Assembly (NCBI GenBank): GCA_019914995.1 | Contig: CM034145.1 | Coordinates: 744,001 to 808,000 of the forward strand | DNA from: Acanthochlamys bracteata | Lineage: Eukaryota; Streptophyta; Magnoliopsida; Pandanales; Velloziaceae | Length of the DNA: 64,000 nucleotides | Direction: 5' to 3' | Shown here: one piece after another, positions 20 to 63,415 of the stretch | Numbering within the stretch: position 1 is the stretch's first letter | How the letters are laid out: the number at the start of each line of letters is the position of its first letter | The notes under the pieces: model-generated | What the model was told of the DNA's origin: nothing | Databases searched by the model: none | Seen by the model: only the letters and a program-made list of their open reading frames with translations | Program-made: the position numbers and the translations under genes

Positions 20-3000
20 TTTCTTTCTTTGTGAAGTTAAATAGCTTTCAGGCAAAGGAAACGGGTTGTATTTAGTTGGTTGTTGTGATTCACCGCCAAA
101 CCAGCTAGGAATCTGCATCATAACAAAAACATTAGATGGAATTTTACCCATACTGAATGGCTAGAAATAGACACAGATATACGTGAAGTATGCTTGCTAA
201 CAGAACATCATAGAACAGAAAAATATAGAAGAAAAGTGTATTGCTGCTTGTCAAAGGTAGAGGATGTAGCATCTGCATAACTATTTATTCAGTTAAAATA
301 TGCACTAAATACCATGAAGTTTGTGAACTGATCAGGGTCAACACGAGTAGCAGACTCTGCTTGCGCATCAGAAACTCCTGCTGGGTGAGAGAGGGAATCG
401 TGAGGATCAACCATTCCTAGCACCATTGGTTCGTCCCATCTGTTAATGGTAGGATTTACACCAACTTGAGTCATATGTTCCTCCAGACATGCGTAAAAGG
501 TGTTATACGGAGCCACCTGTACAAGCAGCATGTTGAAAGAAGTCATTATCATGCATCAGAAAACTATTGAATTCATTCTGCAAAGAGAAGAATTTTGCAA
601 ACTGAAACTAAGCAAACAAACAACTGTTCAAAGTCTCTACAGTAATGACATTAAGCAACTCAAAGAACTTGCGAAATTTTAAATGTTGTGGATGATGTCA
701 GGAATTAAAAGCAAATTCAAGGGCTAAATGTAAACACAGCCAACCATGTTATTGATCTCGACAATCATGTGAGAGATTAAACTATATCAAACAAAGACAT
801 TGATAAAGAGAATTAGTCAGCAATGAAATGTATGTCCTCCATAAGATCCTAGTTGAGACGTGAACCATATAAACCTAAACAAACATGAAGTAACTCACTT
901 GTAAGTTGTGATTATCTCCAACAATTAAAGGTCTTTGATTGACCCCCAAGAAGAAGATACATTCTCGACAATTCGCAATGCAAATACGTTTAGTTGCTGT
1001 AATAACTTGCACCCTCTCGCAATGTTCCACCCTCAGAGCCTGAGAAATCAAATCATAAAGATGTGGAAAGAGCGATTGACAAAAGACTCCAGCATGCATT
1101 AAGCACTAAATTTTGATGGAATAACTGCAAGCCCATGGATTTCAAAACAGGAAAGTTTCTTTAAGAACTTACATTGGACAACCTAGTTTCTTACTAACAT
1201 TTGCTTGAAGAACACATTTAAGTAAGAATGAGACGGACAAAGTGCAAGCCTAGGTAGTTCTAAGAAGTTGTCCATCAGCAGCACAGGTGCTCAATGCGGA
1301 CAACAAACAACCTTAAGTCTCAGACTATTACATAGAGATGTAAGTGAATGTAGAAAGGCACTGTTGGAAAAAAGCACGAAACAATTCCAGGGACAAGAAT
1401 GAACTTCAAAAAGCTAAAATCTGTTAAAGTAGGAAACATGACACTGCAATAGATGAACAAGTACCTTCCCGATAGCACCTAGAACGATTGTTGCATCCGA
1501 ACATCCATATACAGTAGCATAGTGAAGAGGAGCAAGTACATAAATCATGGAATCATGGCAGTTTAGCACCTGCAGCAAGATAGCTAGAAAAGTCAAATTG
1601 ACATATGTAGTGCCTCCAAACTCAAACAACAAGTCAATTACATGTTTATAGGAACGAATGAGCAACTTGGACCATACTATAAACATTGCCATATACAGAA
1701 TATACTAAATTAAACATCTCAGCATATACCCAAGCTATCATGAGATGCTAGGATGAAGTTGATTCCTAACTCACCATCGGGCCATACCAACCCAAATTAG
1801 CATCGAGATCTTTAACAAATGTGCATTTGAGCCAAATGAGCACAAACGAACTCAGCCTTTTTGCATATATAAAAGCAGAAAGATAAACACTTAGAATGCC
1901 CATAAACTAAAATGCATTTTGGCCTTATAGATTGTGCAAGTCAGTCCACAGTTTTCATGTATCCGCATGTCCAAAAGCATCAATTGTTTTACCAACCAGT
2001 GAGTGAAAGAAACAACATTCTTGTCTGGCTTTCACCTTAGTGTCTAACAGATATATGGAGGATCATGATAGAGTTCCACAAACAATTGGCAACTGTCAAA
2101 GCCAAAGGTAAAAGGTTTTAGAGAAGTTTCCATTTACAGATTTTATATGAAAAGAATACTAAGCAACCACCAACAGTAGATCATGCATACATGTGCACCT
2201 TGGAGCCATGTAGTAGGGAACATAGTTCTTGGAAAGTTAAAAACACTACTACTTTCTTCAAACGTCCTCAAGAACTTTAATGTAACTTATGTAAAATAAT
2301 TCCAGCTTGAGACCAAAATCAAGCTCAAATTCCAACTTAAAAAAAAGGCTTTCCGTGTGGAGTTACCTTCACAGAATGTCCATCAATTTCAGAACCCTGC
2401 CTTAAAACAGAAGCTTTAGAGAAACCCTCAACAAAAGTCTGAGTTCTTGAAGAGGAGGCATTATTAGGCTTGCTTGTGGAGGCATCAGCCATTATCACAT
2501 CTTGGTCAGAGTTAGTAATGGGGCCATTTTCTTTAGCTGATGCTCTCTCAGCATTATGTTCCAACGAAACGGCTATAGTTTGCAATAGCCATTCATGGAC
2601 TTGAGCAGCAGGGAGATGAGCAGCAGGCATGTCAGGATCAGAATTAGCAAAGAAAGGAGCTGCCTGACTCAACGAAATTCCCTCTCCCCTTTCACCAAAT
2701 TGAATGAGAAAACCAAGGTGCTCAAATCTTGCTGATGTCAAGACCTGCAATTTAGATGTTAGTTGTTATCAAGACAACAATTCCGATTTCACTAAAGCTA
2801 GCTAAGTATCAAACTCCTCTAGGAACCAACCACTATGGTAAGTTGTAATAGACTACGTCGAGTTAGAAGAACAAAGAAAGAGAAGAGTTAAAGTAGTATT
2901 GCGAGTTTGACTAGAACTACTTGAGAAAATTACTGCAGTGGGAACACACTGGTTTTGAAGCTTCAGGAAGTAGAGAAAATCTAGGGAAAGGCAGTTAGAA

Positions 3001-7559: not shown

Positions 7560-9395
7560 ATGGAGCAGTTGGCAGCAATTGCAAGCGGATATGATGATGG
7601 CTCAGACTTTGAGGTTGATGACGTCAGGAGCGAAAATCTTAATGAGAATGAAGTCAGTGATGAAGAAATTGAAGCGGAAGATTTGCAGAAACGGATGTGG
7701 AAGGATAAAGTAAGGCTAAAGAGAATCAAAGAGCGACAGAAGCTGACAGCGCTGCAGGCTTTGGAGAAATCTAAGTCCAAGCAAACTTCTGATCAGGCTC
7801 GGAGAAAAAAGATGGCTAGAGCCCAAGACGGGATTCTAAAGTACATGTTGAAATTGATGGAAGTGTGCAATGCTCGTGGATTTGTATACGGTATCATACC
7901 CGACAAGGGAAAACCTGTAAGTGGAGCTTCAGATAACATAAGAGCCTGGTGGAAAGAGAAGGTGAAATTTGACAAAAATGGTCCTGCTGCTATAGCAAAG
8001 TATGAGGCAGAGAACTTGGCTGCTCAAAGTGCGCTGCATAATGGCAAGGGAAACCATCACAGTCTCATGGATCTTCAAGATGCGACTTTGGGGTCTCTTC
8101 TGTCATCTTTGATGCAGCACTGCAACCCCCCACAGCGCAAGTACCCACTAGAGAAGGGCGTGCCGCCCCCCTGGTGGCCTACGGGAAATGAAGAGTGGTG
8201 GACTGAATTGGGGCTACCAAAGGGACAGGCGCCTCCTTACAAAAAACCACATGATTTGAAGAAGGTGTGGAAGGTTGGAGTCCTGACCGCTGTGATCAAG
8301 CACATGTCTCCTAGTATTGACAAAATCAGAACCCATGTCCGCAAATCAAAGTGCTTGCAGGACAAGATGAGTGCAAAAGAGAGCTCCATCTGGTTGGGTG
8401 TGTTACATAGAGAGGAAATGATATGCCAGCAACTGAGTAGTGACAACGGATCATCGGATGTCACGGAGGCCCAAGACAACAGTAATGGGGAGAGAAGGGA
8501 AGACTCTGGTAGCAGTAATAATGAATTCGATGTTGATGGTGCACAAGATGTCCGTGGCTCTGTATCATCAAAAGATGATAATAGAAATCTGCGTGCAGTT
8601 GATGTTTCCCAGCAAAGAGTGGAAACTTTGACCACTTTAGCTAGAGAAAGTGACCCACAAGATAACCCCAGTCAAATTGTTCAAGTAACAGAAGTACCTG
8701 AGGAGCGAAGGAGAAAGAAACCTCGTGAAAATCCTGAAGTTGCAGTTCATAAGGATGTGCCATCTCCTAATAATCATGTGTCTCATGAGCAATGGAATCC
8801 AGTACCTGATATCAACCACACAGTTTCCACTTCTTCACTAGGCTATGACATACAGAATAACATCCAGGGAAGAAGTTTACCTTTCCCTTCTGGACCTCAG
8901 CAAGGAGTGTTCCAAAACCGGTTCTTTTTACCTCAGCCTGCTCAACAACGTGCATTACATGCTCCTCCTAATTTGTCTACCGCCAAAATGCATGACAACC
9001 ATCCCTTGGCATATGTAGCTCCACCAAATCCTGAATTGTCATCTGGAACCACATTTGGATTCTTTTCCACGCCAGTGGGACAATTGAGCTACAATCTTTC
9101 TCATGACAGACGGCAACTTCAACCTAACTTACATGCTTATCAAATGAGCACGGAAGGATCTGGAGCCCCTGCAGGAAGACAAGTTATTGGGGATTCTTTA
9201 ACATTGAATGGCAATTCAAATGGATCTGCTGCTGTACAACCATACCCCGACAACACATTCCACAGCGAGCATGATAACTTCTTAAGGATGCACTTAGATT
9301 CTCCTGTTGGTGAACTACCTCTTAGTCCACTTGATATCAATATTGATGATTACTTAATGCCAGAGGACGAGCTGATGGGGTACTTGGGAGCATAA
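7560..9395 (+). CDS. EIL3: EIN3-like transcription factor, EIL3/SLIM1 type
   Basis: One uninterrupted 611-residue ORF, as usual for EIN3-family coding regions. An acidic N-terminus (residues 15-40, [10 protein letters not shown]) precedes the conserved EIN3 DNA-binding region (about 40-290). That region contains [17 protein letters not shown], the basic [39 protein letters not shown], the Pro/Trp block [14 protein letters not shown] and [15 protein letters not shown]. The variable half is Ser/Asn-rich with a basic [10 protein letters not shown] patch near residue 382, and it ends in an acidic tail. Several details match Arabidopsis EIL3/SLIM1 better than EIN3/EIL1: [11 protein letters not shown], the Asp/Ser-rich stretch with GSVSSKDD, and the basic cluster. 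Family knowledge: these are nuclear DNA-binding proteins. EIN3/EIL1 carry out ethylene responses, while EIL3/SLIM1 controls sulfur-deficiency genes. Assignment to EIL3 rather than EIN3 is by remembered sequence and should be tested by phylogeny. Confidence 0.9.
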
Positions 9396-10956: not shown

Positions 10957-11084
10957 TTGAGAAATTACTTTTTACTCAAACCGAAATATTGCAGAACTTT
11001 GTTTCAGTTATGTAAACCTGAAGGGTATATTCGTAACTTGGATTCAAGGATACCACGCGCAGAGATTACCCACTACCATACTGC

Positions 11085-11090
11085 CACGTG
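11085..11090. promoter_or_regulatory. G-box (CACGTG) upstream of the CLE40-like gene
   Basis: A perfect CACGTG palindrome lies in GCCACGTGTTA, about 190 bases upstream of the CLE ATG. A weak TATA-like GTATAACT sits near 11135, which would place transcription start around 11165. G-boxes bind bHLH/bZIP factors. Function here is inference only. Confidence 0.35.
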
Positions 11091-11278
11091 TTATGCCAAC
11101 TTCTGCCAGCTCGATTTTTTCTCTCTCACTCGACTACGTATAACTCGAGAACAAAAAAGAAACAAACTCCACAGCAGAATTGAATCGTTTAAAAGAAAGA
11201 AGAAGGAGAAATCGATTTTTTTTTCAAGTTTTGTAGATTTTTAGTTTAGGTTTTCCTTTTTGTGTTGGTTCTTGTGTA

Positions 11279-11935
11279 ATGGGGAAGAAGAAAGTTTCAT
11301 GCAATGTTGTTGCTCTCTTCTTATTTTTTGTTCTCATTGCGTCTAAGGGAATCTTGGTTCTCTCTTCACGCTCTGGTAATCTTGCTATTCTATTATTTTA
11401 ATTGTTTTATTTCACTTTTTTTTTTTTTGAGCTCTCATATTTGTGTTGGTTTTAATCTTTCAAACACCAAAACAAATAGCAACTGGTTTTAAAACTTGAA
11501 TCTTTGGTACTGTTGTTCCAAAACTCTGGGTTTTTTCTTTCCTCTTTTTTTGTTCTTTTTTTTGTGCGTGGGTTTTTATCCATTGCAGGATTATGGCAAT
11601 ATTTGAAATATTACACCAAAACAAGTAGGAAAAAATTAAAAAGAATGAATGTTTCGTTACGAGTGTTTTTAAAATTTGGGTGTTAAATGTTCACAGGATT
11701 ACTGCAAGATGAACTTGAGAAGGTGGTAGTGATGGCTAGAGAATCCAATGTGAGTATTGCAAAACTCGAGTCCTTTGATGAAATGGCTCAGTTGAAAACA
11801 TTTTTTGGTTTTCTTGGAAACTCTTAGGGAGGAATTGGCCCAGCAAAGATGGTACTGAAAGAATCAGCAAGGCAAGTTCCTACCGGACAAAATCCAATTC
11901 ACCACAATGATGTTCCTGTTAAACCTTTCCATTGA
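11279..11935 (+). CDS. CLE40: CLE signalling peptide precursor, CLE40-like
   Basis: Three small exons with good GT-AG junctions: 11279-11375 (phase 1 end), 11697-11749 (phase 0) and 11828-11935. They join into an 85-residue precursor. The N-terminus (MGKKKVSC, then a hydrophobic run VVALFLFFVLIA) looks like a secretion signal. The middle is short and charged. Near the C-terminus lies RQVPTGQNPIHH, matching the CLE consensus R-x-VP-x-G-x-x-P-x-HH, followed by a short tail NDVPVKPFH. Most CLE genes are intronless, whereas CLV3 and CLE40 have two introns. Arabidopsis CLE40 is 80 residues, with RQVPTGSDPLHH and a similar Pro-rich tail, so CLE40 is the closest match I recall. Family knowledge: CLE40 is secreted, processed to a 12-13-residue hydroxylated glycopeptide, and restricts root and shoot stem cells through ACR4/CLV1/BAM1-type receptors. 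The Gln-Asn-Pro-Ile variation in the core is unusual. Confidence 0.85.
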
Positions 11936-16906: not shown

Positions 16907-19900
16907 ATGGAGAACCAGATTTCATTTGGAATGATTCATCCTTCTTCCTCTACTGCTTCTTCCATGCATGCAGCTGTTGCTGCAGGCTTCATGTAATTAA
17001 TCTCTTCCCGATCTGTATATCTTGTCTCCGTTTTGATCTTCTCAAAGGTGCTGCAAGCATGTCTGGATCATTCAGAAAATTCTTTTCTTTGTTTCTCTTT
17101 ATTTTTTGGGTTCTTGTTTTTCAGAAGATGATCAGTAGTTGGTAGTAGTGTTGGTGATGTTCAGTTCATATCATTTGATGAAGTGGTTGATGTGGATCAG
17201 TTGGAAATCTAACTCACTCTAACTAGTCATTTCTTTCATAGAGCTTTAAAAAAATAAAAAAAGGACCTCATGATCTCAATACAAAAATTTTGTTGTTGTG
17301 GTTGCTGCAGGAATAATAACAAGAAGGAGATGAGTACTTCAAGTTCTTCATATCATGACCTGGTAGAGCTTGAGCAAGCTCTCTACATGTATTTTGAAGG
17401 CAACCAACAACAACAACAACAACAAGATCATCACCATCATCCTTCAGCTGCCACAACTCCTCATGAACACCATCGACGTATGTATACATATAAACATCGA
17501 TCAATTAATCCGTCCATATATATCACATTTTTTTATTATAGATATTATCAAGATGATGAAGATCAAAAACAAACTATTGTAAATGATCATATGAAGCTTT
17601 TTTTTTTTTTTTTTTGAAGTCATGGGAACAACATGAACAAGATTTGATTTTCGGTTTTTTTTTCTTTGATTCTGATAATACATGTAACAACTTATTGCGT
17701 CAGCTCCCATGCCTCTTGATTTTTTTTAATATATGTATATATGTAGAGAAAGAATGTCTGTAATTAATGGTTGCAGGAATTAATGTTTTATTATTTCATA
17801 TATTGCAGAGACTCTCAATATCTTCCCTTCTCAACCCATGCGTGTTGATCATGCTTCCTCAACAAAGGCCTGTAAAAATAATCTCATATATATTAACTTC
17901 TTTAATTTTCAATATTATTAAGATCATGAAATTTTCATTTTAACAAAAAAATTTTAAATAATTACAGAGTGGTATGATCAGCATAGCTTCTGCTGATATT
18001 AACTCATCGAATAAGAAAACATCAACAGATCGTCAACAACAACAAAAAATGGAAAATGTTGATCTTGCCGCAAATCATCAACCACTGAAGAACAGCAAAT
18101 CAACAGTAAATGTGATGATAAAAAATTCTCAAAAACTAGTAATTAAAAAATTATTTTTCTAGCTTTTTTTTTTGTTAAGCTTATATGTTTTTATCTTTTT
18201 TCTTTTTTCGGTTCTTTCCCTAAACAGAAGGAAGGGGAGAAGAAAACAACTTCAAATACAGATCAAGATGGTCCTAAAACTCCAGACCTTAAAGTAAATA
18301 TCAACCTTTTCCTAAAATTATGTATTTTCCTGTTTTCTTTTTTATTTCAATGATGAATAATTTTTTGATTCATGTAATTTTTGTGTTGTGTAGATTTTGA
18401 GAAGGCTTGCTCAGAATAGAGAAGCAGCAAGAAAAAGCAGGCTAAGAAAAAAGGTATACGTATACTTCAATCATTTTCAACTTTTTATCACCCAAAATAA
18501 ACAAAAAAAAAATCCTTAAATCTTCGTGCCGGCCGACTTCGTGTTTCATCTTCGTTCTTCTTCATCAACAGGCTTATGTTCAGCAACTCGAAAGCAGCAG
18601 AATCAGACTAACCAATCTTGAACAAGAACTTCAAAGAGCTAGATCTCAGGTTATGTATATATTTTCCAAAAGAATTTGTTTTTCGTTTTCATTGATCGAT
18701 GATTTTTTACGCACTAATTTTTACGCTGTTTGTTTTATGATTATAGGGTCTGTTCTTCGGTGGAGGATCACTTCATGGAGATCAAGGGCTTCCACCGGGC
18801 GTCAATGCTCTTAGTTCAGGCACGCAAAAAAACCCAAAATATAACAAAAATTTCACCCGAAATAATTGTTTTCAACTTAAGATTAATTGATATTATATAA
18901 TGTGTTTTATCAGATGCAGCTATGTTTGATATGGAGTACGCGAGATGGTTAGAAGATCAGCATCGTCTAATGTGCGAGCTACGGGCGGCAGTCCAAGAGC
19001 AGTTGCCGGATTCAGAGCTCAGACTGTTCGTCGATAATTGCTTAGCGCACTACGATGAGTTGATCAATCTGAAAACCATGGTTGCGAAGATAGACGTGTT
19101 CCATCTTCTTTCAGGTATGTGGAAGACACCGGCGGAGAGGTGTTTCCTATGGCACGGCGGTTTCCGGCCATCAGAGATAATCAAGGTTTGTTTTCTTTTC
19201 TTTTGAGATATATATATAACCCTAACCGTATATTTAAAACTGTAGTACTGTGAAAAAAATAAATGAAGAGAACAAGCAGGCATGGCGTGTTTAAATGTTA
19301 CTTAACTAAATTTTGTGAAAATAAAAAGTAAGAAATAAAATTTTTTAAAAAATAAAATAGAAATAGAATTTAATATTTATATTTTAATAATTTTTTAAAA
19401 TGTGTTGAAAATTGAAATATTAATTATATTAAAAAATGTGTAAATAAAAAAATTGAAACTAAAATATTGCATATGAAAGTGAAATTTTGAATTTTTTATA
19501 TAATTAAAATATATGAACTATTTAAAATTACGGGGCATTTGAAATACGTCCTAAACAAGAAATGATGAAAGTGGTTTCCTGAAATATAGTGGAAGTGAAG
19601 CATGACTTCATTTAAGTTTTGTTTCAAAAGTTCGTAGCTCTAATTTGTTTACTCAAAATTGGAATTCTAATCAGTCGTTTAATATGTAATGAAAATTTAG
19701 AATTTTATTTAAGTATCCTTATATAAAAACTCTAAATAAAATTAAAATATAAAAATTAAATTTTACTTTCTCTAAGTAAACATGCTCTTAGCCAAATAAC
19801 GTCTTAAAAAGAACTTCCTTACTAGTAACTGACTTTTCTTTTTAAAAATTACTTTCGAATAACTTCATACTTATTTTTGAATCACTTATGTACGTATAAG

Positions 19901-29125: not shown

Positions 29126-31489
29126 ATGCAACAACACTCATCTTCATCTTCTCCGGCGACAGCACCGGAGGAATACAAAGTCAAAGACACGAACCCGAAC
29201 ATCGGAGACCGATGGCCAGGAGCCGGAGCAGCAGAGAAAGTTACAAGCACGTACGACCTCGTTGAACAGATGCACTACCTTTACGTACGGGTCGTAAAGG
29301 CCAAAGACTTGCCGCCGAGTCCGATCACCGGAAGCATCGACCCGTATGTGGAAGTAAAGCTCGGCAACTATAAGGGCACTACGAGACACTTCGAGAAGAA
29401 AACTAATCCTGAATGGAACCAAGTGTTCGCTTTCTCTAAGGAAAAGATTCAAGCTTCTGTTGTCGAAGTGATCGTGAAGGATAAAGAGTTGATCGGAAGG
29501 GACGACTTCGTCGGTAGGGTTGTTTTCGATTTGAACGAGACGCCGACACGTGTCCCCCCGGATAGTCCGTTAGCACCGCAGTGGTACCGGTTGGAAGACA
29601 GAAGGGGGGAAGGGAAGGTTAGAGGTGAACTAATGGTTGCTGTTTGGATTGGGACACAAGCCGACGAAGCTTTCGCCGAAGCATGGCACGCCGACGTAGC
29701 GGCAGCTCGCTGGCCGGACGGCGTGCAGAGCACTCGAGGAAAAGTTTACGTGTCACCGAAGCTGTGGTACTTGAGGTTGAACGTGATCGAAGCACAAGAT
29801 GTTCAACCGACGACGATCGCCGGGAATAGAATACCGGAACTGTTCGTTAGAGCGCACGTCGGTCACCAGGTTTTACGGACGAAAGCTATCCCGGCGAGGA
29901 TGCTGAACCCTATGTGGAACGAAGATATGGTGTTCGTTGTTGCGGAGCCGTTCGACGAAATGCTGGTGATTACTGTCGAGGACCGAGTTGGTCCTCGGAA
30001 AGATGAAGTGCTCGGAAAGACTGCTCTTCCTTTAACGATATTCGAAAGAAGGCTAGATCACCGGCCGGTACATTCACGGTGGTTCAATTTGGAGAAGTTC
30101 GGGTTCGGTGCTCTAGAAGCTGACCGGAGAAAAGAGCTCAAGTTTTCCACGAGGGTTCATCTCCGGGCATGCCTTGAAGGAGCTTACCATGTAATGGACG
30201 AGTCAACGATGTACCTTAGTGATACAAGACCAACAGCTAGACAACTATGGAAGAACCCCGTCGGAGTTCTTGAAGTTGGTATCATCGGCGCTTCGAATCT
30301 TCAGCCGATGAAACCTCGCCGCACCGACGCGTACTGCGTCGCAAAGTACGGTCAGAAATGGGTGCGTACGAGGACGGTGATCGACTCGCTTTCTCCGAAA
30401 TGGAACGAGCAGTACACTTGGGAAGTGTATGATCCTTGCACTGTTATTACGTTCGGAGTCTTCGATAACTGTCAGCTTGATAAGAGCAATAATGGAGGTT
30501 CAGGCAGAGACAGCCGGATCGGAAAAGTCCGTATCCGGCTGTCGACGCTTGAGCTGGATAGAATCTATAGCCATAGCTATCCTTTGATTGTTATGCAACC
30601 TAACGGAGTGAATAAAATGGGAGAACTACAGCTTGCCGTTAGGTTCACTTGCCTGTCGTTCGCCGGAATTGTTTACCTTTACGGTCACCCGTTGCTTCCA
30701 AAGATGCATTACATTCACCCTTTTACAGTAACACAGTTGGATAGTTTGCGGTATCAGGCAATGGGCATTGTCGCGGCAAGACTTGGAAGGGCGGAACCGC
30801 CGTTGAGACGAGAAGTTGTAGAGTACATGCTCGACGTTGAGTGTCATCTGTGGAGTATGCGCCGGAGCAAAGCTAACTTTTTCCGGATCGTTTCTATCGC
30901 TTCCGGCATTGTCGGGCTTTTCAAATGGCTTGAAGAAGTCCGCCAATGGCGGAATCCAATCACCACCGTGTTAGTTCACGTCCTTTTTGTCATACTGATT
31001 TGCTACCCGGAGTTGATCTTGCCGACGGTTTTCTTATACATGTTTGTTATTGGATTGTGGAACTACCGGTTCCGGCCAAGGCACCCGGCGCATATGGACA
31101 CTAGACTGTCCTGGGCAGAGACGGTGAGTCCCGATGAGTTAGATGAAGAGTTCGACACGTTCCCAACTTCCCGACCGCACGATGTTGCCCGAATGCGGTA
31201 TGATAGGTTACGCAGTGTAGCCGGAAGAGTGCAGACAGTGGTCGGAGACATGGCGACACAAGGTGAACGGTTAGGATCGTTGCTCAGCTGGAGGGACCCA
31301 CGGGCAACGGGGTTGTTCGTCGTGTTTTGCTTGGTAGCGGCGGTGGTGCTGTACGTGACGCCGTTCAAGGTCATAGCTTTGGTGACTGGATTGTTCGTGT
31401 TAAGGCACCCGAGGTTCCGAAGCAAGTTGCCGTCGGTGCCCAGCAACTTCTTCAAGCGTCTGCCGTCCAGGATTGATAGCATGCTTTGA
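29126..31489 (+). CDS. FTIP1: Multiple C2 and transmembrane protein, FT-INTERACTING PROTEIN 1-like
   Basis: A single-exon ORF of 787 residues, standard for plant MCTP/FTIP proteins. A short N-terminus ending in TSTYDLVEQMHYLYVRVVKA leads into three C2 domains at about residues 51-155, 213-325 and 378-490. The C-terminal phosphoribosyltransferase-C region (about 630-787) holds two hydrophobic membrane segments, near NPITTVLVHVLFVILICYPE and ATGLFVVFCLVAAVVLYVTP. In the first C2 domain, acidic residues remain in both loops (SIDPYVEV; KDKELIGRDD). NLEKFGFGALEADRR, YGHPLLPKMHYIHPFTV and RHPAHMDTRLSWAE match Arabidopsis FTIP1 better than MCTP3/4. Family knowledge: ER-anchored tethers at plasmodesmata, and FTIP1 helps export FT protein from companion cells. 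It lies in the same orientation as TGA10, as I recall for Arabidopsis, and converges on JMJ30. Confidence 0.92.
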   Translation: MQQHSSSSSPATAPEEYKVKDTNPNIGDRWPGAGAAEKVTSTYDLVEQMHYLYVRVVKAKDLPPSPITGSIDPYVEVKLGNYKGTTRHFEKKTNPEWNQVFAFSKEKIQASVVEVIVKDKELIGRDDFVGRVVFDLNETPTRVPPDSPLAPQWYRLEDRRGEGKVRGELMVAVWIGTQADEAFAEAWHADVAAARWPDGVQSTRGKVYVSPKLWYLRLNVIEAQDVQPTTIAGNRIPELFVRAHVGHQVLRTKAIPARMLNPMWNEDMVFVVAEPFDEMLVITVEDRVGPRKDEVLGKTALPLTIFERRLDHRPVHSRWFNLEKFGFGALEADRRKELKFSTRVHLRACLEGAYHVMDESTMYLSDTRPTARQLWKNPVGVLEVGIIGASNLQPMKPRRTDAYCVAKYGQKWVRTRTVIDSLSPKWNEQYTWEVYDPCTVITFGVFDNCQLDKSNNGGSGRDSRIGKVRIRLSTLELDRIYSHSYPLIVMQPNGVNKMGELQLAVRFTCLSFAGIVYLYGHPLLPKMHYIHPFTVTQLDSLRYQAMGIVAARLGRAEPPLRREVVEYMLDVECHLWSMRRSKANFFRIVSIASGIVGLFKWLEEVRQWRNPITTVLVHVLFVILICYPELILPTVFLYMFVIGLWNYRFRPRHPAHMDTRLSWAETVSPDELDEEFDTFPTSRPHDVARMRYDRLRSVAGRVQTVVGDMATQGERLGSLLSWRDPRATGLFVVFCLVAAVVLYVTPFKVIALVTGLFVLRHPRFRSKLPSVPSNFFKRLPSRIDSML

Positions 31490-32688: not shown

Positions 32689-35600
32689 TTAAATGGTATT
32701 AGTGTCAATGCCTGAAGCTGTCCACCAAAAACTAACAGAAAAGCTTGTTGAGAGAGATCTGACATAATGCCACCACTTGGGTGGAATGTAAAGCAACTCT
32801 CCTTCATCCAAAACACAATCGAGAAATTCTAGATGATCCGCCTTTGGAAACTCTGCGATATCAAGGCTATCAAGATCCACCTGCAATATACGGCATCAAA
32901 AGACTTTCAAATATTAGTTGTACAAATAAGGCACCCCTTAAGTTAGGTATTCAGAGATAATGCAGTCTCCCACAAACAAAATAATGAACATGCTAAAGTT
33001 TCACTACAAGTAATAAGTGTTCACCAAACCATAGTTGCAGGAAAACACAGCAAGAATCATTAGAACATGGAATCATGATTTGAAGCTTGAAGAGAATCTT
33101 GTTGCTTTTCTTTTTTTATGTATAACTCGCAACTGCACGACTTCTTGTGTGAATATATTTGCATATCTATATGACCTCATAGAAAATATCATGACTACTT
33201 AAATGCTTACGCATAATATGCGACTAAGACATGCGATTTCATGATACTGATTGAACATTGGGGTTCTGAATATCCAACAATAAGCCAGGAGTGAAAGAAT
33301 TTGATAATTTTACCACCTCATGCAAAGCCGCGGTCAAGAAAAACATCTATGGCTTCTTCAAGCTACTTATGGACAGAGTGATACCTGGCTTGAATTGCTC
33401 AACATTGACTCAGAATATGGGTACAAGTCCTCAGACACAGAAGCTGGGTAGAGTCTTATATATTTTCTCCCAACAACCTAAAATTGAGAGATATGCAGAA
33501 TAATTATTTAGATAAACAAATTACACATCGTTGTTGTAGAAAGTCTAAAGACATGTACAAGACAATGCAATCCATGCCGTGCATTTAGCTTACAAGATTA
33601 GTCAACAACAACCTACTTGTCATGAATAAGCCAGCTTATGTGTTTTATGATGTGTTATAGTGAACAACAACCTACTTAGTCATTCGGTATAGTATACGAT
33701 GTTTTATTTTGTGTTTTTACGCTTTGTAAAACAAGACAAACCAATTGCGAGCTTCCTAACTGTTTATTGTTTATACCTGAGCAAAAAGATTATGGTGTGG
33801 ATCATGATGTAATGGAGTCACTGTTCCAGGGGGACCAAACCAAGCATTAAGAGAATGAAGCTCCCCACCGCCAGCAAAACAATAGTCTGGCACCATTATA
33901 TCATTGCGTAATTCTTCAATCTGATGACAATAATATAGTTCAAATAATGTTTAGAACAAGTTACCCCAAAAAAAAAAAACAGTAACTTAAGAAAAGCTTA
34001 AATTACCTGATCAAACAAGGTATGTTGTGCGAGATAGCTGAGCTTAGTAGGGCACTCACTAGACTGAATCCTCTCGAGAAACTGCCCAAATGTGATCAAC
34101 TCCTGCTTCCACTCAGGGGACAAGTAGTTTGTTCCTACCTTTGAACATTGCCAACTTCAGTCACTATCATTTCGTTTTAAAAGAATACTACTGTGATGAA
34201 GTTTTAGAGAACTGCATAGGACTTAAAATGACTCTAATTAGGCATATGCCTTTAATAAAATCTTAAACATCTCCCTAAAACTTTCATCTCAATCATGATA
34301 AGTTAATTTATAGCCCATAAGCTTTTACTGAATATACAAGAAGCTGAAATCGTGTCATAAATCTTCAGTATAGCATGGCTATAAGGTATTTATACCACTA
34401 AGTTAGGACTTTGACTGAAGGTGCTTATAAGAACAACTATATAATAATAATCCAGAATAAAGAATATGGAGTAACTATGTCCTAGAGCGACAAAATATCA
34501 CATAATAGTAGGAATTTACACAAAAAGAACATAAATATAACCAGCAAGATAGATACGGCTGGTCACCTCAACAGGAATAGTCCTATCATCAGCAACCCTT
34601 TTCAGGTACTCAAGGTCTTTCCACCTCGTCCGTGCAGGCCAATGGTCAATGGAGCCGCTGATGATGACTGGTGAAGCTCGTAAAAAGTAGTCACAAACAA
34701 ATGCATCAAAAGAAAGTGACGGCTGTTTCTCGACTAGCTTACAGGACAAAGACTTGGTTGGAAGAATTCGAATCACCTGAAGTAAAAGAAAACCAGAACA
34801 AATTATTCGTTCTTCACATTCACCAAACTACAGTGTTTGTCTAAATACACACAATAATCATATCGTATTTAGTTAGGGAGAAATTATGCAGCTTGCTAAA
34901 AGCATACTATAAAAGACCTTATTTTACCAGGAATTTTGGTTTGTTTGTCTATCTCCACAACATTGAGATGCATCAGGAGCTTGCTCAGAATGAAACATCA
35001 ATTCATATCAGAATTATTATGCCATGAAAAGCATGCAATTTGCAAGTCTGCTACTCATTTCTGCCCAGTCCCAGGCCTTAGAATCACATATTGCTGAGTT
35101 GGGGGCATCCACCATGATACAATTATAGGAAAAAGACCCACCTGCCTTAACTCGTCTTTGGAATTATTATGTTGTGAAAAATATCAGTGCTACACTGCTA
35201 CTTTTAGTTAAAAACTCAGTATAATTGATGCCAGAAACGGTGTCTATTGTAAACAATCTTTCCACAACCACATATCGTACCAACTCGAAACCTTAGAATC
35301 AAACATATATTGCAAGTGAGCAAATTACTCCGTTGAGCATAATCGTGATATCAAACAACTACTAGCTAGCATCACTATTACCTCCGACCGCACTAAACCT
35401 CCAAAAATTCACGTTACCAAGAGCTATCATAGAAGGAATCTCAAGATGAAGCAGAATAACGTTGTTGTATTTGAAATAAGTTGCAATTCTTTTAAACTAA
35501 AACGATTCAGTTCCTTTCAAAGATGATATCTTCGGAGATTAGCTACTATACCTCATTCAAATCCCATGATTTCGAATTAGAAATCTCATCAGTAACCCAA

Positions 35601-36064
35601 TTCTTATCACCTCCAGAACAATCCCGACCGTCCGATTCATCACCATCGCCTCTGCAACGAACGGTGACGATTGTCTTCACAGCATCGCAAAGCTCTCTCC
35701 TTAACAACGTTCCTCCCATTATAATCCCCATATCAAGCGCTCGTAAAGCTTCTTTCCTCTCACCGGCGGCTAGCCGCAGCGCTGCGACGTGTAAGCACGC
35801 CATTGCATAAGCGTCTCTCCAAGCAGAACCCACGTCATGCCAAGGACCGGAATGAAGTTGTTCCCAAGCCATCTCACGAGCTGCCTCTGCAGCACGAAGA
35901 TCGCCGGCGGTGAAAGCTTGTTCAGCTGATGCGGCGAAAGCGAAGCCCCCGGCTTCCGCTACGCGGCGAAGGAGTGCTGACCGCCGGGAAGATTCAAGGA
36001 ATGGAAGGCTCGGTGATGATGAATCCGGCGGCGGAGGTGGATGAGACTCGGCGCCGCTGCCCAT
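32689..36064 (-). CDS. JMJ30: JmjC-domain histone demethylase/hydroxylase JMJ30 (JMJD5)
   Basis: Six exons, all phase 0: 36064-35552, 34776-34567, 34138-34007, 33920-33777, 33477-33385 and 32880-32689. They give about 427 residues, against 429 in Arabidopsis. Exon 1 is an intact helical N-terminal region with [20 protein letters not shown] and [20 protein letters not shown]. The JmjC core follows. The Fe(II) ligands are visible as H-x-D in [14 protein letters not shown] (exon 4), with the distal histidine in [12 protein letters not shown] (exon 6). [16 protein letters not shown] supplies the 2-oxoglutarate-side lysine region. Family knowledge: a nuclear Fe(II)/2-oxoglutarate oxygenase linked to H3K36 or H3K27 demethylation, clock period and flowering time. 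Two evening elements lie just upstream. Exon 5 is only 93 bases and has no start codon in frame. Confidence 0.95.
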
Positions 36065-41516: not shown

Positions 41517-44500
41517 ATGGCAGGGAGATCTAGTAAAGGGAGGAACAAAGGAAAGGTATCAAATTCCAATGCCAATGGTCACTCCGTTCAGAGCACGAAG
41601 AAAAATGACCCATCCCAATTGGATAGCAAAGATACTGATGCGGCAGAGATTCCAAATGGTGAAGCCAATGGAAGCGGAGATACAAGTACAGTGGAGGGGA
41701 AAGTTGAAGGTAGCATGGGGAATGCTGATACTTCAGCAGATACATCTAAACAGACTGAAGGTGAATTCTTACCTTCTTTTTGATGAAATGGATGTCGTTT
41801 TAGCTAATGTTAGATGTAAAAGCGAAGTGGTCGTCTTTGTAGGAGGTTGTGTGCAGTTTCTGTTTTCTTATTGATTAATCAAAATTAATGTAATACATGA
41901 AGTTTCTTTCACTTCTTACTCCTGTCTACTTTAGAGAGTGTCCAATCCGATAGCCTTAAAGCCTTACTGACGAATTTTTTCTCACAGGTGAACTCCATCT
42001 TTATGCAGTTCCTGTCAAGGGAATGGCTGGTGAAAAATTAGAACTCCAGGTAGGTTGCTCTTCTATGTAATTTGTTAGTAAGATCCTAATAGTATGGATG
42101 TAGAATGGTGCAGGATGCTTATCCTGATCTACGTACTATTGTTAAACCCACTTCTATTATTTAAAAGGGTATATTGCGATCACTTTGTGTTTTTGTTTTT
42201 CATATGCTAAAGATGCTTAAGTTTTTAGGCACTTGATACTCCTTTGCACTACGTCCCTTCTGTGTTTGTGGGGATGTTATGCTTTGTCTTCTTCAATCAA
42301 GATTCCATTTCCAGTCATTATTTTGTATTTGAATCTGTGAGAGGATGAGATGAAAGTGGGCGAGTATACAAATTCAAAGTCATATTATTCTTATTAAAAT
42401 ATTGTAAATCAGATGTTATGTAGAACACATTTTTCAGTGTATCTTGAAGAGAATAGAGAATCTTGTATTAGATAGTTGCATTTTTAATGGATTTTAAAAT
42501 TTATGAATTCAAAAGTAGCTGTTCCTTTTTCTTTTCTGTTCGCATAACATTATAAAGATAGGTCAAACAATCTTTGCATCAGTTAGCTATGACACAAGTG
42601 GCCACGTGACATTTCAGTGTAATGTCAGAAGAGCACCTGCATTAAATATTCATTCTTTTCATGATCTCCTAAAAATTATTCAGAACTATCCTAACTTTCC
42701 AAAGCTGCAATTCAGTATACGTAATCTTTTCCAACAGTATTGATATCTTCCTGTTTATGTTTTTAGTTGTTCCTTTTTTTGGGTTATTTATTGATTCATT
42801 TAATTATTTTAAAGAATGCTCTTGGTTGGTGGTTTCTAATTTGGAGTGTTTGGAGAATCTGATATCCATGCAACATATTTCCTACTTCTGGAGTGCTTCT
42901 GATATTTTATGTTACTTTATTTCTCAGTTAAGTCCAGGTGATTCTGTCATGGATATCAGGCAGTTCCTTCTCGACGCCCCTGAAACTTGTTTTGTTACTT
43001 GCTATGATCTGATTCTGCATACTAAGGATGGATCAAACCATCATCTGGAAGATTATAATGAGATTTCTGAAGTTGCAGATATTACTAGTGGTGGCTGTTC
43101 ATTGGAAATGGTTCCTGGTATATGCATTTCCAATTACTTGTATTTAATTGAAGTTGTTTGATTAGTAATTGCTGGAGCTGATGCTTGTCCCTACAGCGTT
43201 GTATGACGACAGGTCCATAAGGTCTCACGTGCGTCGTGCTCGAGATTTGCTGTCCCTTTCGACTCTTCATGCATCATTATCAACAGCACTAGCTTTGCAG
43301 CATGAAAACACTAAACACAGCACACAAGGTCGTATATATTTCTTGTTTTACAGCATGCATATCCTACACATGTTTACTGTCATCACCTTCTTGGTGTTTG
43401 AAAATTCAGTTAATCATAGGCTGCTATGGTTCTCTTTTTCCCTTTGCGTGAGAGTTTATTATGTTTTACCTTATCTTCTCTATCTATTTCAACTCAACTA
43501 TTTTTTGTATCCACAGATGTAAAATCTGAATCCCCCGAGCTTGATGGCTTGGGTTTCATGGACGACATCACAGGGTTGCTCAATAAATTGCTGAACTCAT
43601 CACCTAAAGATGTCAAATGTGTTGAGAACATTGTTTTTTCTTCTTTCAATCCCCCTCCAAGTTATAGGAGGTAAGCTCTTTCTACCAGTATTTCTCTTCC
43701 TTTTTCACTTTAGTCAAATGATTTTGACAATTGGTTTTTTTATAGGCAATTTTTCTTATATGATCTCATTGATTGTCATATAGTTTGGTATATTATAGTG
43801 CTGCCACTTAAAGTGTAGTTTCTCTTTGTTAGGTATCATGCGTTAGTGCATCCTTGATTCCATTTAAGGGCGTGTTTCAAACGCCCGTAACTCCACTTTC
43901 TCTCGCCAGATTTTGAGTTCCGAACAGTTCAATGTTTCAATTACACAAAAAATTCAGAACTCTACTTCCACATACGGAACTCCAGTTTCAACTTTTTTAT
44001 TTGCACACTTCCCAATACAATTATATTTTTTAATTTTTAACACATTTTCAAGAACTATTGAAACACAAACACTGAACTCCACTTTCATTTTATTTTTCAA
44101 GAAACTCTACTTCCTACTTTTTACTTTCACGAAACTCAGTTACGGACATTTGAAACATGCCCTAAATGGAAAATGAGTTCAGTTATTATTGATGGATGTA
44201 AACAGCCTTCATCAATTACTACGTGTTTCTGCATTCTGATTGTATCCTTTTATGATTTTATGTTTGTTTGGCAAGGGTTGCTTTGATGGATATCGCGTTG
44301 CTATCTTTTGCAGGCTCGTGGGAGACTTAATTTATTTGGATGTAGTGACAGTAGAAGGCAACAGATATTGCATAACAGGAACCACTAAAGCTTTTTATGT
44401 AAACTCTACCAATGGAAATGTACTTGACCCAAGGCCAGCAAAGCCTGCTTATGAGGCAAGCACCTTGTTTGGTCTATTGCAAAAGCTCAGCCCAAAATTC

Positions 44501-47500
44501 AAAAAAGGTAAAGACACATGTTTGTATGGAACTAATAACAGTAAAATAGTGAACATTGTTATTGATGAAGTTTGTTTAGTAGTAGCACCTTTTAGCATCG
44601 GATCATAATAGTGATGTTTTCACCGCGTTGAGTAAGATGCAAGCAATAAGACTGATACCGCCTTACAAGAACTTGACTCTGCAATTGTAGGTTTTCGTGA
44701 AATATTGGAGCACAAAGCTTCTGCGCACCCTTTTGAAAATGTTCAGCTGCTCTTACCGCCAAACTCATGGTTGGGGGTTCACCCTGTTCCAGGTAACTAT
44801 TGTGAATAATTGCACTCTGCATAGCATATAGCCATTTGTATACACACTGCTCGCTCTTTTTCTTGCTGCCAGCAGCGTATTATTGTGAAAGTAGTGATTG
44901 ATTTTGGACATGTTGCTTTTTCCACTCCGAATTATATCCTCCTATAACCTTGACAGTTCAGAAGATTTCATCTGAATATAGATTAAAGTAGCAATAATTA
45001 TCTATGAACTAATTAACTCAATGATTATATTATGCTTTATGTAATATTCAATTTTCTGATTGAACCATGTCTGTTAGAACTTTCTATGCATGCATTCTTG
45101 ATTTTACCTCCTATGTTTGTGCTTTTAATAGAACATAAACGAGATGCTGCAAGAGCTGAGGACTCTGTGACTCTTACGTATGGAACTGAGCTAATGGGCA
45201 TGCAGAGAGACTGGAATGAGGAATTACAATCATGCCGGGAGTTTCCTCATAAAACTCAGCAGGAAAGGTGCATTCTATTGCCATTTGGAACATCTCTTAT
45301 TCGCCCTTTTCTTTCCATAATGGCAACTACTTCTCTGGTTCATGGTTTTGAGTTTTTGCTGCATCTATTCATTTTCAGGATCTTGCGTGATAGGGCTCTT
45401 TATAAGGTGTCCTGTGATTTCGTTGATGCAGCCATAAATGGTGCAACTGGTGTCATAAACAGATGCATTCCTCCCATCAATCCTACTGATCCAGAGTGCT
45501 TCCACATGTAAGTGAACCCAGACAACCTACCATTTAGTTGATTAATATTCTTTTGCCTAAGTTGCATATGAAATCGTCATAAGCCATTGACATACCCATA
45601 TTTATCCAGTGGAACTAGAGAAGTTAATGATTTGCTATAATACCAGAAGGAGTTTTCAAATATTTCTTGTTCCACCTGAGACAAAAATCTTGCTGCAGTC
45701 GTTGTCATTAGCTGCACATTTTTTTGGTTCCCACCATTTTTTGATAGGACAGATATATTCACTTTAGTTTGTAAACAGACTTCTTTACTGTTTTAGAGAG
45801 ATGATGCTCATATCTTTAGTTTATATATTTAAACTGCTTTAGGGACGTGGGCTTATGTTGTTTTTTGACATTTTATCATAGGTACGTACACAACAACATT
45901 TTCTTTAGTTTTGCTGTGGACGGCGACCTTGGACAAGTATCCAAAGATCTGTCTGTAGCTGGTAAATTGAACACTCACTGTGAAAGTACTCATCAAACTG
46001 ATCCAAACTTTTGAGAACAGACACTTGACGAGAGGTTGGTTGTAATCCTTGTTCATTTGCATGTGTTAACTTGAATGTAGAAATGCAAGATGGTTCTGGC
46101 CTCGGTTCAGATGCCTCAGCTGGAGCAGCGTCCACTGACGGTGAGCAGGCTACTTATGCATCTGCAAATAATGATCTAAAAGGAACCAAGGCGTACCAAG
46201 AAGTTGATGTTCCTGGACTGTACACTCTTGCAATGGCAATTATAGATTACAGGGGTTTTAGAGTTGTCGCTCAGGTAGATCTCAAGGACTCTCTTTTGTC
46301 ACATTAGTTTTCTTGTTTACGAGATTACAGTATCTTCATATCTCTTCTTTGAGTTGTTCACTTTTAAGATTTCTGACTATTTTCTTATCTAAACAATGAC
46401 TTCACTGATCAATATGTTTAGTTGTATTTAGTAGATGTTATAATGGATGATTGGAGTAAGGTGGTTGATTGTTTCAGGGATGATTCTTCTGTTTGAGGTT
46501 ATATGCTTTCTGTTGATAAGGAGTTCTGCACATTGCAGGCATGCTTCTGATGATTGTCTTTGATTTTGGTATTATAGTGAATGGATTCTTTGTTGAAAAT
46601 GAAACATAGATGTAAAAGCCTACAGTTGACAGAGTAGGTAGGAACGTGTTGGTTGCCTAAGAGATATCTCTGTTGTGTCTACAGAATATGAAGAAATAAC
46701 CTAAACATGTATTATGTTTGGAATAGTTTGATGGAGAGATGTCAAATCAGTTATGTGATAATTCATGTCTGCTTGAAACTTTATTCATGAGCAGTGTTGT
46801 TAGTTTTATTGGCAGTAAGTATTTCACAAGGCTTTTAATCTGCACTAGTAATTCACCAGCAGCAACTTGAAGGTGCTCATGCATGTTTGTGAGTGTGCCT
46901 TGGCATATGCATGCACATTAGTATGTGCCCGCATGTGCCAGGAAGCAGTAGATGACTAGATGGAGGAAAGGAATGCTTCTGAATCATACATATTCTTTTG
47001 CAGAGCATTATACCTGGTATCCTTCAAGGAGATAAGTCAGAGTCTCTTCTGTATGGATCTGTGGACAATGGCAAGAAAATCTGTTGGAATGAATCTTTTC
47101 ATTCAAAGGTCAGTTACTCAATCTCGTAAACTTTGCATCTAAGCATTGCTGATGTAGTTTTAAAGTTAATATATGGGTGGATGCATCTATCACCTTTTCA
47201 TCAAAGATGCATTGTTGTGTTGAGAAGGAAGATTTTGTGTTATCTTTTGGTAATATAAACTCAGTACATGCTGAAAAAGGATGTATCCCTTATCTAAAGT
47301 TTATATATTAACTTCATTCTGCTTAAGATTGTTTTGGGCACGGCCGATTTTCTCCAATTAGATTTCCTAAGCTGTCACTTGGAATTTTTTCCACTTTTAT
47401 AAATTTAATCACTATGTTATGAAGTGACCACTGAGTACATTCACAAATTTCACTGATATTTTGTTGTCTCATTGAGATTCTTTTCATCAAGATTTCCTTC

Positions 47501-50500
47501 ATCTCAGGTACTAGAGGCTGCCAAGCGTCTTCATCTCAAGGAGCACACTGTTTTAGATGGTTCTGGAAATATCGTCAAGTTAGCTGCTCCTGTTGAGTGC
47601 AAGGGCATTGTTGGTAGTGATGACAGGTAAGCCTAATAAATGCATAAAGGCATTTCTCATGAGCTTCATCATTGAAATAGGATATTTACCTATGGGCATG
47701 GTAACAAACTGTTATGATGACACAGAAATGCACATGTAAAAAAGCTTTATGATTTGTTGCTCGGTACATTGAGTTTTTGTAAACAGAATAACTTATCTTG
47801 GGAATGTCCTTTATTTCATTGAGTCTGATTTCAACCACATATTGCCACAAGGAGACAAGTAACTTTCATTGTCTTTATCACTATGCTAGTTTCTCTAGCA
47901 TCGCCATAATTTCTGGACTGATTAAAAGTCCATAACTAAGTTGCGCCAGTTCTATATGTTAATGTCTTGTTGTTTGTTTGTAATATCAAATGTATTGACA
48001 TACTATACTATCACTAGGCATTATCTTCTGGATTTAATGAGAGTGACCCCTCGAGATGCAAATTATATCGGGCCTGGATCTCGTTTTTGTGTCTTAAGAC
48101 CTGAACTTGTTGCTTCCTTCTGTCAGGTATTTATGTTTTGTGCAGCAGTTGATTCTGGATAACTATTTTTGATATCTCATTTTTAGAATGTAATTTACTC
48201 TGTTGCAGGCTGAAGATGCTAAGCTCAAATCTGCATCTGAGGAAGGTGAAAAAGGCCCTGATGCTACTCCTCATGGCAGTGATAGCACCAAGGAAGTGGT
48301 CAGTAACGAATGTCATGAATTTTGGTTTTGATTTTCTAGCAGATTGTTGCTACAAGAGTTTAACATTGACCTTGGCATGGTACCTGTTATATTTTATTAA
48401 ATGTATAGGTGTTATTGAAATGTATAGGCACTTTATATCTTTTACGCTTCTGTTCTTGAGTTAATTTCATTGAGTCTGAGTTTTTAATTGGCAGCAGTAT
48501 CTAAGATTCTAGTAAAGCTAGCTTAAATACTGGACAACCTGGAGTAAGCTATGTATTCAACCTACTTTTGAATGAGAGTTATGGCAAATTTATTCTTCAA
48601 TATCATCTGTTATAGTGAGGATTACAGGAGGTTCACTGCAGATAGGTGCCTATAATGTTCTATGTAAATTCATCTAAGCTACAGGTAGATTTCCAACATG
48701 GAAACTCTTACTAAGCTTAGTTTCATAACTTCTTCTTTCAAATTATAGTGTTAATTTGCTTTCATGTTAAACTGTTCTTTCTACTGCGAATTGCCATTTT
48801 GTCTTGGAGGATGTTCTAATCCTTTTCCTCTTTTTTCCTCTTTGCAGAGCATGCCAGTAGAAGGAAATGCAAACAGCGTAGAAAAAAGTGTTTCTGCTAC
48901 TGAAATTGGTCATAAACACAGTGAGGATATACTCCTCAACCCAAATGTCTTCACTGAGTTCAAATTGGCAGTCAGTCAAGAGGTATTTATTTGATGGATC
49001 TCCTGGTTTTAGGTCATTTTTCTAGTTGTCTTATGTTGTACCTTATTTTGATAAGACTTTAGGATGCATTTATCATTTAACTTTTATCTTTTGGTAGGAA
49101 GTTGCAGCTGATGAAGCAACTGTAAAGAAAGCTGCAGCCTATCTGATTGATGTTGTCCTTCCCAAGTTTGTGCAAGACCTTTGCAGCCTTGAAGTGTCAC
49201 CCATGGATGGTCAGACGTTAACTGATTCCCTTCACGCGCATGGGATAAATGTTCGCTACTTAGGGAAGGTCGAAAATTTATAGTCTTAGTCAGGTTCATC
49301 CTCATTTTAAGCTGTCTATTATGCTCTTAGTAACAATCCTTTTGTTTTCAGGTAGCTACCATGACAAAACATGTACCTCATTTATGGGATATATGTGTAA
49401 CTGAGATCATCATCAGATCCTCCAAGCATCTACTTAAGGTGTGCATAAGTTTTCTCTATTTCATATGAAATTAATCTATTGTACTGGTTTGCCTTTTCAT
49501 TTAACAATGAATACTATATGGAACTTGTCGTTTATCACCTAGTGCGTCTATGCTTTCACCTACATCTTATGTAGTTTGTAATGCCACTTGTGCTGGCTGG
49601 CTAAGCTGTTTTCGCTGCACAGGATGTATTAAGAGATGCCCAGGATCATGATCTTGCCACCGCCATCTCACATTTCTTTAACTGTCTCATTGGACATATT
49701 AAAGGTGGTGTTAGCAGTGTGCAATCAGGAACTCCAAAGAAGGTATCCATCTTGTTTTTCAGATCAAACTTTTCAACATTCTTAAGTGTCAAACTGCAGC
49801 AAACATTCTGTCTTGTATTCCTCACTACAATACTTTAAAAAAATAGCAAACATTCTGTATGTATCGTTTTTACAACACTTCAAAAAAATCAGAAGTGCTT
49901 ACTTAAAATAAGAATGTTGGCTAGTACTTGATATTTATATTCAAATTCTATAGTAAGGATACTATGATTTTGATTACTGATGTGAATCTCATACTTTGAG
50001 CACCCCCTGATACGACCTTTTCAATTCACACTTAACAGGCCGTTAAACAATCATGATATCTTTGGGTTTCTTTGTGCTGTGGTGGTTACTTGATTATCTC
50101 TAATCTAATTCCAAGTTCATGTGTTCATGTATTTAATCTACTTCTTTGTGTTCACATATTTAATCCCTTGAAGTATACTCCCTCTTGATTATTTGACATT
50201 CAATTTGCTTAACTACCTTCCATGAAAAGGGGCAACTACGATCGAGCAGTGCTGCATCCTCTAGAAAAAAGAATTCATCTCATCTCCTTATGACCTCTGA
50301 AAAGCTGTGGTCTTCTATTAAGGATCTTTCACAATTCAAATACCAGGTATTCTGATTGTAGTCCGATTTTCCTCCTAGAGTTGCTACTTGCAGGATTTGC
50401 AGTATATTGCTGTCTTTCATTTTGCAGATTGAACTTCCAGACGATGCAAGGTCAATGGTCCGAAAGGTTTCAGTCTTTAGAAATTTATGTCAAAAGGTAA

Positions 50501-62425: not shown

Positions 62426-63415
62426 TTACCCAAGAGAAGGTATGAACCAGATTGGAGGTGGATAAGTGAGGTAAGCATCACGCAAATACAGATATTCATA
62501 TTCTTTCTTTACCATATCAAAGATTCCCACATCACGGGTTCGCTGCTTCCCTGCATCTAAAAGACCCTCTGCCAAATACTCTGTGCAGTAGATGCGATTT
62601 TCTATCAGTCCAAGCACATCTTTCGCTGCCAGGGGTGATGGCGCTATTGGTGCCCAGGAAGATAGAGTGTCCCTGCAGGTCAGCGATTGCAACCCAAGCA
62701 GCTCCGTCCTTATCTATGGGTCTCCAAGCGGCAACCCCTATACCAGATGTCTTATACATCTGGTTATCAAGATCATTAGAATCTTCCCCAGCCCTCGGAT
62801 CATGCACCAAATCTTGTAAACGATCAGGCAACAAAATCTCACCATTGCAGACGGTGATAGAACAAGATGCTGTGCAACTTTCAACCCCCTGCACCAATTG
62901 GAACATGACTTCGGCACTGGCTTCTGAAATTCGAACCTAACTACATCAGCCGCCCCTGTTAACCCCAGCAACACATCCTTGTTCAAAAACATAACATCAA
63001 CGAAGTTGTAATACTTCTTCGTCGGAGGGCTGTCAATCACAAGCCAAGAACTATCACCCTGTTTTGCAAAAGCCAACTGCTGAAAAGGTGCATGGTGAAG
63101 CACAACAATACAATCACCAGAAGAAGGGTTATATTGAGAGTACCAACTTGCTCACAAACAACACTATGAACCACTCCTTCTCATAAACATACATAGTGTT
63201 TTCATCAATCATGCTCTGGATAGTGTATTTGGTAATCAAACCAGACGAGGGATCACGAATGGCGTCAACTATAGGAACAGTAGTGAGTGGAAGGCAAGAG
63301 TAAGACTCCCCTGAGTGGTTGAAAAAGAGATAGATAACACGATTCTTCATCGATTACAACAATCCAACCATGATCAGAACCAAGCCAACCAGAAACGGAG
63401 AGGAGAAAAGTAGCA
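62426..63415 (-). pseudogene. Decayed DUF295/KIB1-4 beta-propeller (F-box family) gene
   Basis: On the minus strand, recognisable propeller segments occur in order but in shifting frames. They are GWLGSDHGWIVVIDEES (about 63380), the segment with LPLTTVPIVDAIRDPSSG (63350-63150), the segment with QQLAFAKQGDSSWLVIDSPP (63147-62920), DKDGAAWVAIADLQGHSIFL (about 62700) and IENRIYCTEYLAEGLLDAGK to YPPPIWFIPSLG (62620-62426). At least four frame changes separate them, near 63350, 63145, 62920 and 62640. No F-box is found upstream, although typical family members are about 350-420 residues with an N-terminal F-box. The C-terminal PPIWF-PSL ending is intact. The family regulates poorly known SCF targets and is prone to duplication and decay. 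This copy is most likely non-functional; assembly errors could explain some but hardly all frame changes. Confidence 0.8.

Follow-up and report, generated by a model that had tools for sequence, protein, structure and literature searches.

The DNA shown above raises the question of whether three short open segments between positions 11279 and 11935 of the window, by which we mean the whole stretch of 64,000 nucleotides analysed here, form a functional gene for a secreted CLE peptide, and to which part of the CLE family such a gene would belong. Since gene callers easily miss short, intron-split peptide genes, a correct model of this one is a useful annotation. The preliminary description of the locus had proposed a CLE40-like gene whose three exons of 97, 53 and 108 bases join in correct phases into a precursor of 85 residues, with a signal-like N-terminus and a CLE motif near the end. 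Splicing and translation in silico reproduced this structure, and we consider it probable (roughly 0.78), judging from the sequence, that the locus is a functional flowering-plant CLE gene of the CLE40/FCP1 type. Its parts are as follows.

11139..11144, plus strand: TATA-box-like hexamer TATAAC, possible core promoter (pattern match only)
11279..11375, plus strand: exon 1, start codon and signal-peptide region (translation, hydrophobicity, coding score +8.6 bits)
11376..11696, plus strand: intron 1, GTAATC..TCACAG (321 nt, phase 1, GC 0.28)
11589..11624, plus strand: rival exon 2, judged less likely (best acceptor of 64, coding score -4.4 bits)
11697..11749, plus strand: exon 2, pro-region GLLQDELEKVVVMARESN (coding score +12.4 bits)
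11750..11827, plus strand: intron 2, GTGAGT..TCTTAG (78 nt, phase 0, GC 0.36)
11828..11935, plus strand: exon 3, end of the pro-region, CLE core, tail and stop codon TGA (translation, coding score)
11870..11905, plus strand: CLE core RQVPTGQNPIHH, residues 65-76 (sole CLE-like match in the window)
11906..11932, plus strand: C-terminal tail NDVPVKPFH, residues 77-85 (both prolines align with the CLE40 tail)

The three exons add up to a coding sequence of 258 nt (97 + 53 + 108) with no stop, no frameshift and an intact core, and its predicted product is the 85-amino-acid precursor MGKKKVSCNVVALFLFFVLIASKGILVLSSRSGLLQDELEKVVVMARESNGGIGPAKMVLKESARQVPTGQNPIHHNDVPVKPFH. Both introns begin with GT and end with AG, and the exons (GC 0.40, 0.42 and 0.44) are richer in GC than the introns. 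The start codon at 11279 is the sole ATG within 11101-11281, and the TATA-like hexamer lies 140 bases upstream of it. The precursor opens with the basic stretch MGKKK and continues through a hydrophobic run (best 12-residue Kyte-Doolittle mean, 3.38) and a pro-region to the core and a tail of 9 residues. The (-3,-1) cleavage rule, a general and sequence-free rule, by itself allows six signal-cleavage sites between residues 21 and 32, and the signal peptide is perhaps cleaved after residue 29 or 30. As judged by hydrophobicity and this rule, the short precursor carries a predicted secretion signal.

We then considered whether the motif could be a chance occurrence. Three CLE patterns, one strict (R.VP[TS]G.[ND]P[LI]H[HN]), one looser and one minimal, matched in the six frames of the window only at 11870-11905, so that a 12-residue C-terminal core of the type RxVPTGxNPxHH occurs at just one place, and 0/60 order-2 Markov simulations of the window matched any of them. 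The coding scores of the exons were +8.6 bits for exon 1, +12.4 bits for exon 2 and +20.1 bits for exon 3 without its stop codon (+13.5 bits with it), the scoring having been trained on seven ORF pieces of the window (2484 codons), two of them without a Pfam match. For comparison we scored open windows from three stretches that are only presumed to be non-coding, the windows overlapping one another; the score of exon 2 was equalled by 81 of the 2278 windows of 54 nt and that of exon 3 (+20.1 bits) by 26 of the 683 windows of 105 nt. Codon usage thus lends moderate support to the exons. Searches of Pfam and NCBIfam with the 85-residue precursor returned no family match, a PDB search with it returned only two rows (E 1.3 and 1.6), which we take as chance, and an Rfam search at gathering thresholds and a tRNA scan were both empty. 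A scan for bacterial promoters and terminators was discounted, as it has no bearing on a plant gene.

The splicing of the three-exon model is predicted from sequence, and we compared it with other ways of reaching the CLE frame. Candidate gene models could start at any ATG in 11001-11866, had introns no shorter than 70 nt and needed splice scores that exceeded -3, on general splice matrices that are approximate. This procedure yielded 36 models, of which the sole intron-less one has a 7-codon leader starting at 11849, and the top seven all share the start at 11279 and the donor at 11376. The model preferred here, which is that of the preliminary description, ranked third; the two above it use the exon 11589-11624 together with later acceptors for exon 3. 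Between 11001 and 12200, the donor of intron 1 ranked first of 77 GT sites and its acceptor second of 64 AG sites; the donor of intron 2 ranked third of 77, and its acceptor is weak (14th of 64). Two candidate acceptors of intron 1, at 11586-11593 and 11694-11701, share the sequence CAG|GATTA and lie 108 bases apart. The upstream acceptor, at 11588, has the higher score, and an exon running from it to the end of exon 2 meets a TAA at 11684. Use of this acceptor could give non-productive splicing, leading either to that stop codon or to an exon that resembles non-coding DNA. Exon 1 and the exon with the motif look robust, and exon 2 is less certain.

These results bear on three readings that would alter or abolish the proposed gene. 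That the motif is a chance reading of non-coding DNA might be argued from the precursor having neither a family-model match nor a meaningful match in the PDB; we regard it as extremely implausible, given that none of the 60 simulated windows yielded any of the three CLE patterns and that the motif shares its reading frame, after splicing, with an N-terminus that is both basic and hydrophobic. A milder departure would leave the peptide as described and change the pro-region, with exon 2 at 11589-11624 or with another final acceptor. Models with that exon do rank first, second and fourth of the 36 by the splice matrices, but this ranking rests on general, approximate matrices. As for the coding score of 11589-11624 (-4.4 bits), of 3441 open windows of 36 nt from the same presumed non-coding DNA 1609 do as well. 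Codon usage is the reason for which we prefer 11697-11749 (+12.4 bits), and we think the alternative improbable; the mature peptide is unchanged whichever exon 2 is used. Finally, the locus might be a silent or decaying CLE copy, whose frame survives while the peptide is not made. There is a precedent of sorts in soybean GmCLE40b, which the available text of PMC4526924 calls a likely pseudogene, and an exon that ran from the stronger acceptor (11588) as far as the end of exon 2 would include the TAA. Against such decay stand the coding sequence free of stops and frameshifts, the GT..AG ends of both introns, the intact core and the coding-like exons, and we judge it very unlikely.

Taking the gene to be a functional CLE gene, we asked to which subgroup it belongs. 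Two introns are reported for CLV3, CLE40, FON2, FCP1 and HvCLE402 (PMC5519606, PMC8594942), and the Arabidopsis CLE genes outside CLV3/CLE40 are all said to be intron-less (PMC8594942). The two GT..AG introns predicted here bear out, in a comparison of intron number, the likeness to CLV3/CLE40 that had been proposed. For legumes, introns are reported as predicted in 12 soybean and nine bean CLE genes, and throughout the CLV3/CLE40 group; soybean GmCLE40a, which at 82 amino acids resembles the present precursor in length, has a predicted intron, and the table row for GmCLE40b gives none (PMC4526924). Because introns in legume CLE genes are uncommon but not exclusive to this group, those of the present gene fit the CLV3/CLE40 group without proving membership. 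CLV3/FON2 and CLE40/FCP1 have themselves been placed in one CLE group.

The core gives a similarly qualified answer. The core RQVPTGQNPIHH matches that of Arabidopsis CLE40 (AT5G12990) at 9/12 positions, including Gln2 and Thr5, and that of rice FCP1 and barley HvCLE402 (HvFCP1) also at 9/12, including Thr5 and Ile10. It thereby combines Gln2 of AtCLE40 with Ile10 of FCP1, Thr5 being common to all three. It differs from Arabidopsis CLE40 at positions 7, 8 and 10, which are Gln, Asn and Ile here and Ser, Asp and Leu there, and from FCP1/HvCLE402 at positions 2, 7 and 8, which are Gln, Gln and Asn here and Glu, Pro and Asp there; unlike that Pro, Gln7 cannot become hydroxyproline. Among 17 labelled cores, namely AtCLE40, HvCLE402/FCP1 and 15 tomato labels (17 of 29 tomato rows), SlCLE46/47 match at 10/12 and SlCLE25/29 at 9/12, and a second scoring against 28 rows (SlCLE25-52) left the best match unchanged. 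Since the 10/12 core lies outside the CLE40 name, the core is not by itself enough to fix the subgroup. The tail offers a further point of comparison: as had been noted, it is short like that of CLE40 (9 residues here, 7 in Arabidopsis CLE40), and its two prolines occupy the same aligned positions as the two in KHIPFTP, the tail of Arabidopsis CLE40 (PMC13082318), an agreement expected by chance about 1 time in 36.

The remaining evidence comes from the neighbourhood. The window is AT-rich (33% GC) and carries plant genes recognized by Pfam.

292-555, minus strand: weak match to TBCC (Pfam; 20.6 bits, cut-off 24.8)
7560-9395, plus strand: EIN3-like gene, 611 residues in a single frame (Pfam; PDB)
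18901-19203, plus strand: DOG1-domain exon (Pfam)
29126..31489, plus strand: MCTP gene, 787 residues, three C2 stretches and PRT_C in one open frame (Pfam)
34519-36064, minus strand: KDM8-like gene with ARM repeats in its N-terminal part and a piece resembling a cupin (Pfam)
42673-52470, plus strand: parts of a CLU (clustered mitochondria) gene with several exons, namely CLU_N, GSKIP, CLU and TPR (Pfam)
54596-56110, minus strand: GIL1/IRKI-like gene (Pfam)
62741-63151, minus strand: KIB1-4 beta-propeller piece (Pfam)

The EIN3-like gene, which has the same orientation as the CLE gene, stops 1.9 kb upstream of it, and the better of its two PDB chains is EIL3, not EIN3. The DOG1-domain exon is presumably part of a TGA-type bZIP gene, the N-terminal piece of the KDM8-like gene has no PDB match at 0.001, and the TBCC match is perhaps the end of a gene running on to about 5002. 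AT3G57890 has been used as a reference gene (PMC6508794). The MCTP gene lies 17 kb downstream of the CLE gene. It probably belongs to the MCTP3/4/5 clade. If At5g12900 is IRKI, the GIL1/IRKI-like gene may serve as a second marker of synteny with the CLE40 locus. The available text of two papers lists At5g12900 as a miRNA target (PMC8996056) and as an 'unknown protein' (PMC3981707), without confirming the name IRKI. AtMCTP5 is reported as At5g12970, two gene tags from CLE40, and none of the 16 AtMCTPs listed in the source lies on chromosome 2, the home of CLV3 (AT2G27250). The MCTP neighbour therefore favours CLE40 over CLV3, as a single marker. Legume CLE40 genes are reported to be syntenic with Arabidopsis CLE40, and grass FCP1 regions are reported to be collinear; a text search of the available literature with rice gene numbers for FCP1 and its neighbours gave no match.

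Could the gene nevertheless be the CLV3/FON2 orthologue, that is, a shoot stem-cell ligand that stem cells would secrete and CLV1 would perceive? The two-intron structure is common to CLV3 and FON2, and the single CLE group that holds them together with CLE40/FCP1 leaves room for this reading. Gln2, Ile10 and the prolines of the tail, by contrast, fit CLE40/FCP1, as does the MCTP neighbour, with no listed AtMCTP on the chromosome of CLV3. The sequence part of this comparison is one-sided, as it was computed against the letters of CLE40 and FCP1/HvCLE402. We consider a CLV3/FON2 orthologue unlikely and the gene probably nearer to CLE40/FCP1. With two introns, 9/12 identity in the core, the tail prolines and an MCTP gene nearby, the CLE40-like identity proposed at the outset is probably right.

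It had also been suggested that Gln-Asn at positions 7 and 8 and Ile at position 10 could affect receptor preference, an idea that we consider weak and for the most part unsupported. The barley HvCLE402 core REVPTGPDPIHH has Ile10 too; this core is reported to match the rice FCP1 core completely, and at 1 uM the HvCLE402 peptide is reported to act on Arabidopsis roots like CLE40 (PMC5519606); this result is silent on Gln7, since the peptide has Pro7. Asn8 occurs in 17/28 and Ile10 in 4/28 of the tomato cores SlCLE25-52. Gln7 alone is unusual: position 7 is proline in 25/28 and serine in 3/28 of the same tomato cores. Legume cores usually have proline there, with serine or alanine in some, and the available text of PMC4526924 does not name CLE40 among the legume genes with either of these two. 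AtCLE40 has serine at this position, and FCP1/HvCLE402 has proline. The lack of Pro7 is thus shared with Arabidopsis CLE40 and is not a mark of the subgroup, as FCP1/HvCLE402 has it. A search of the running text of the available literature for core strings of the Gln7 type found no CLE paper; the CLE40 tail, searched in the same way, matched PMC13082318.

Gln7 might still define a CLE40-type ligand that lacks hydroxyproline and arabinose at position 7 and has an altered internal subtilase site after Gly6, a proposal that we hold to be unlikely. PMC10244433 cites findings that CLE9 bound BAM1 unchanged when its positions 4 and 7 carried proline instead of hydroxyproline and that P4A left CLE40 activity in root assays unchanged, and these speak against a strong effect of Gln7.

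The features observed here are the three open exons, a CLE core preceded by a hydrophobic N-terminus and followed by a tail, and the neighbouring MCTP gene; beyond these, knowledge of the CLE family suggests how the gene may work. The spliced mRNA would encode the 85-residue prepropeptide, which would enter the secretory pathway by means of its signal peptide. In the core, Pro4 would probably be hydroxylated, as in CLE40, where this modification is reported to guard against internal cleavage by subtilases. Subtilases, perhaps with carboxypeptidases, would release the 12-residue RQVPTGQNPIHH into the apoplast, and the tail would be trimmed by analogy with CLE40. CLE40 is reported to be released by subtilases, to have its tail trimmed, to be perceived by receptors of the BAM1/CLV1 type and to control the size of the meristem (PMC13082318, PMC8594942). 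RQVPTGQNPIHH would then bind LRR receptor kinases of the CLV1/BAM family and may set the balance between maintenance and differentiation of stem cells in the root meristem, the shoot meristem or both. Barley seedlings without HvCLV1 are reported to be unresponsive to the FCP1 peptide.

Apart from one unusual residue, the gene is an ordinary and well-formed representative of a well-known family, to which it adds a probable CLE40/FCP1-type gene with a natural Gln7. The nearby MCTP gene accords with a CLE-MCTP linkage at the CLE40 locus, and this linkage is perhaps older than the divergence of this plant and Arabidopsis. If the proposal for Gln7 were true, the stability of the ligand or its preference for CLV1 versus BAM would differ from that of CLE40 and FCP1, and Gln7 would be a lineage-specific change in a stem-cell signal.
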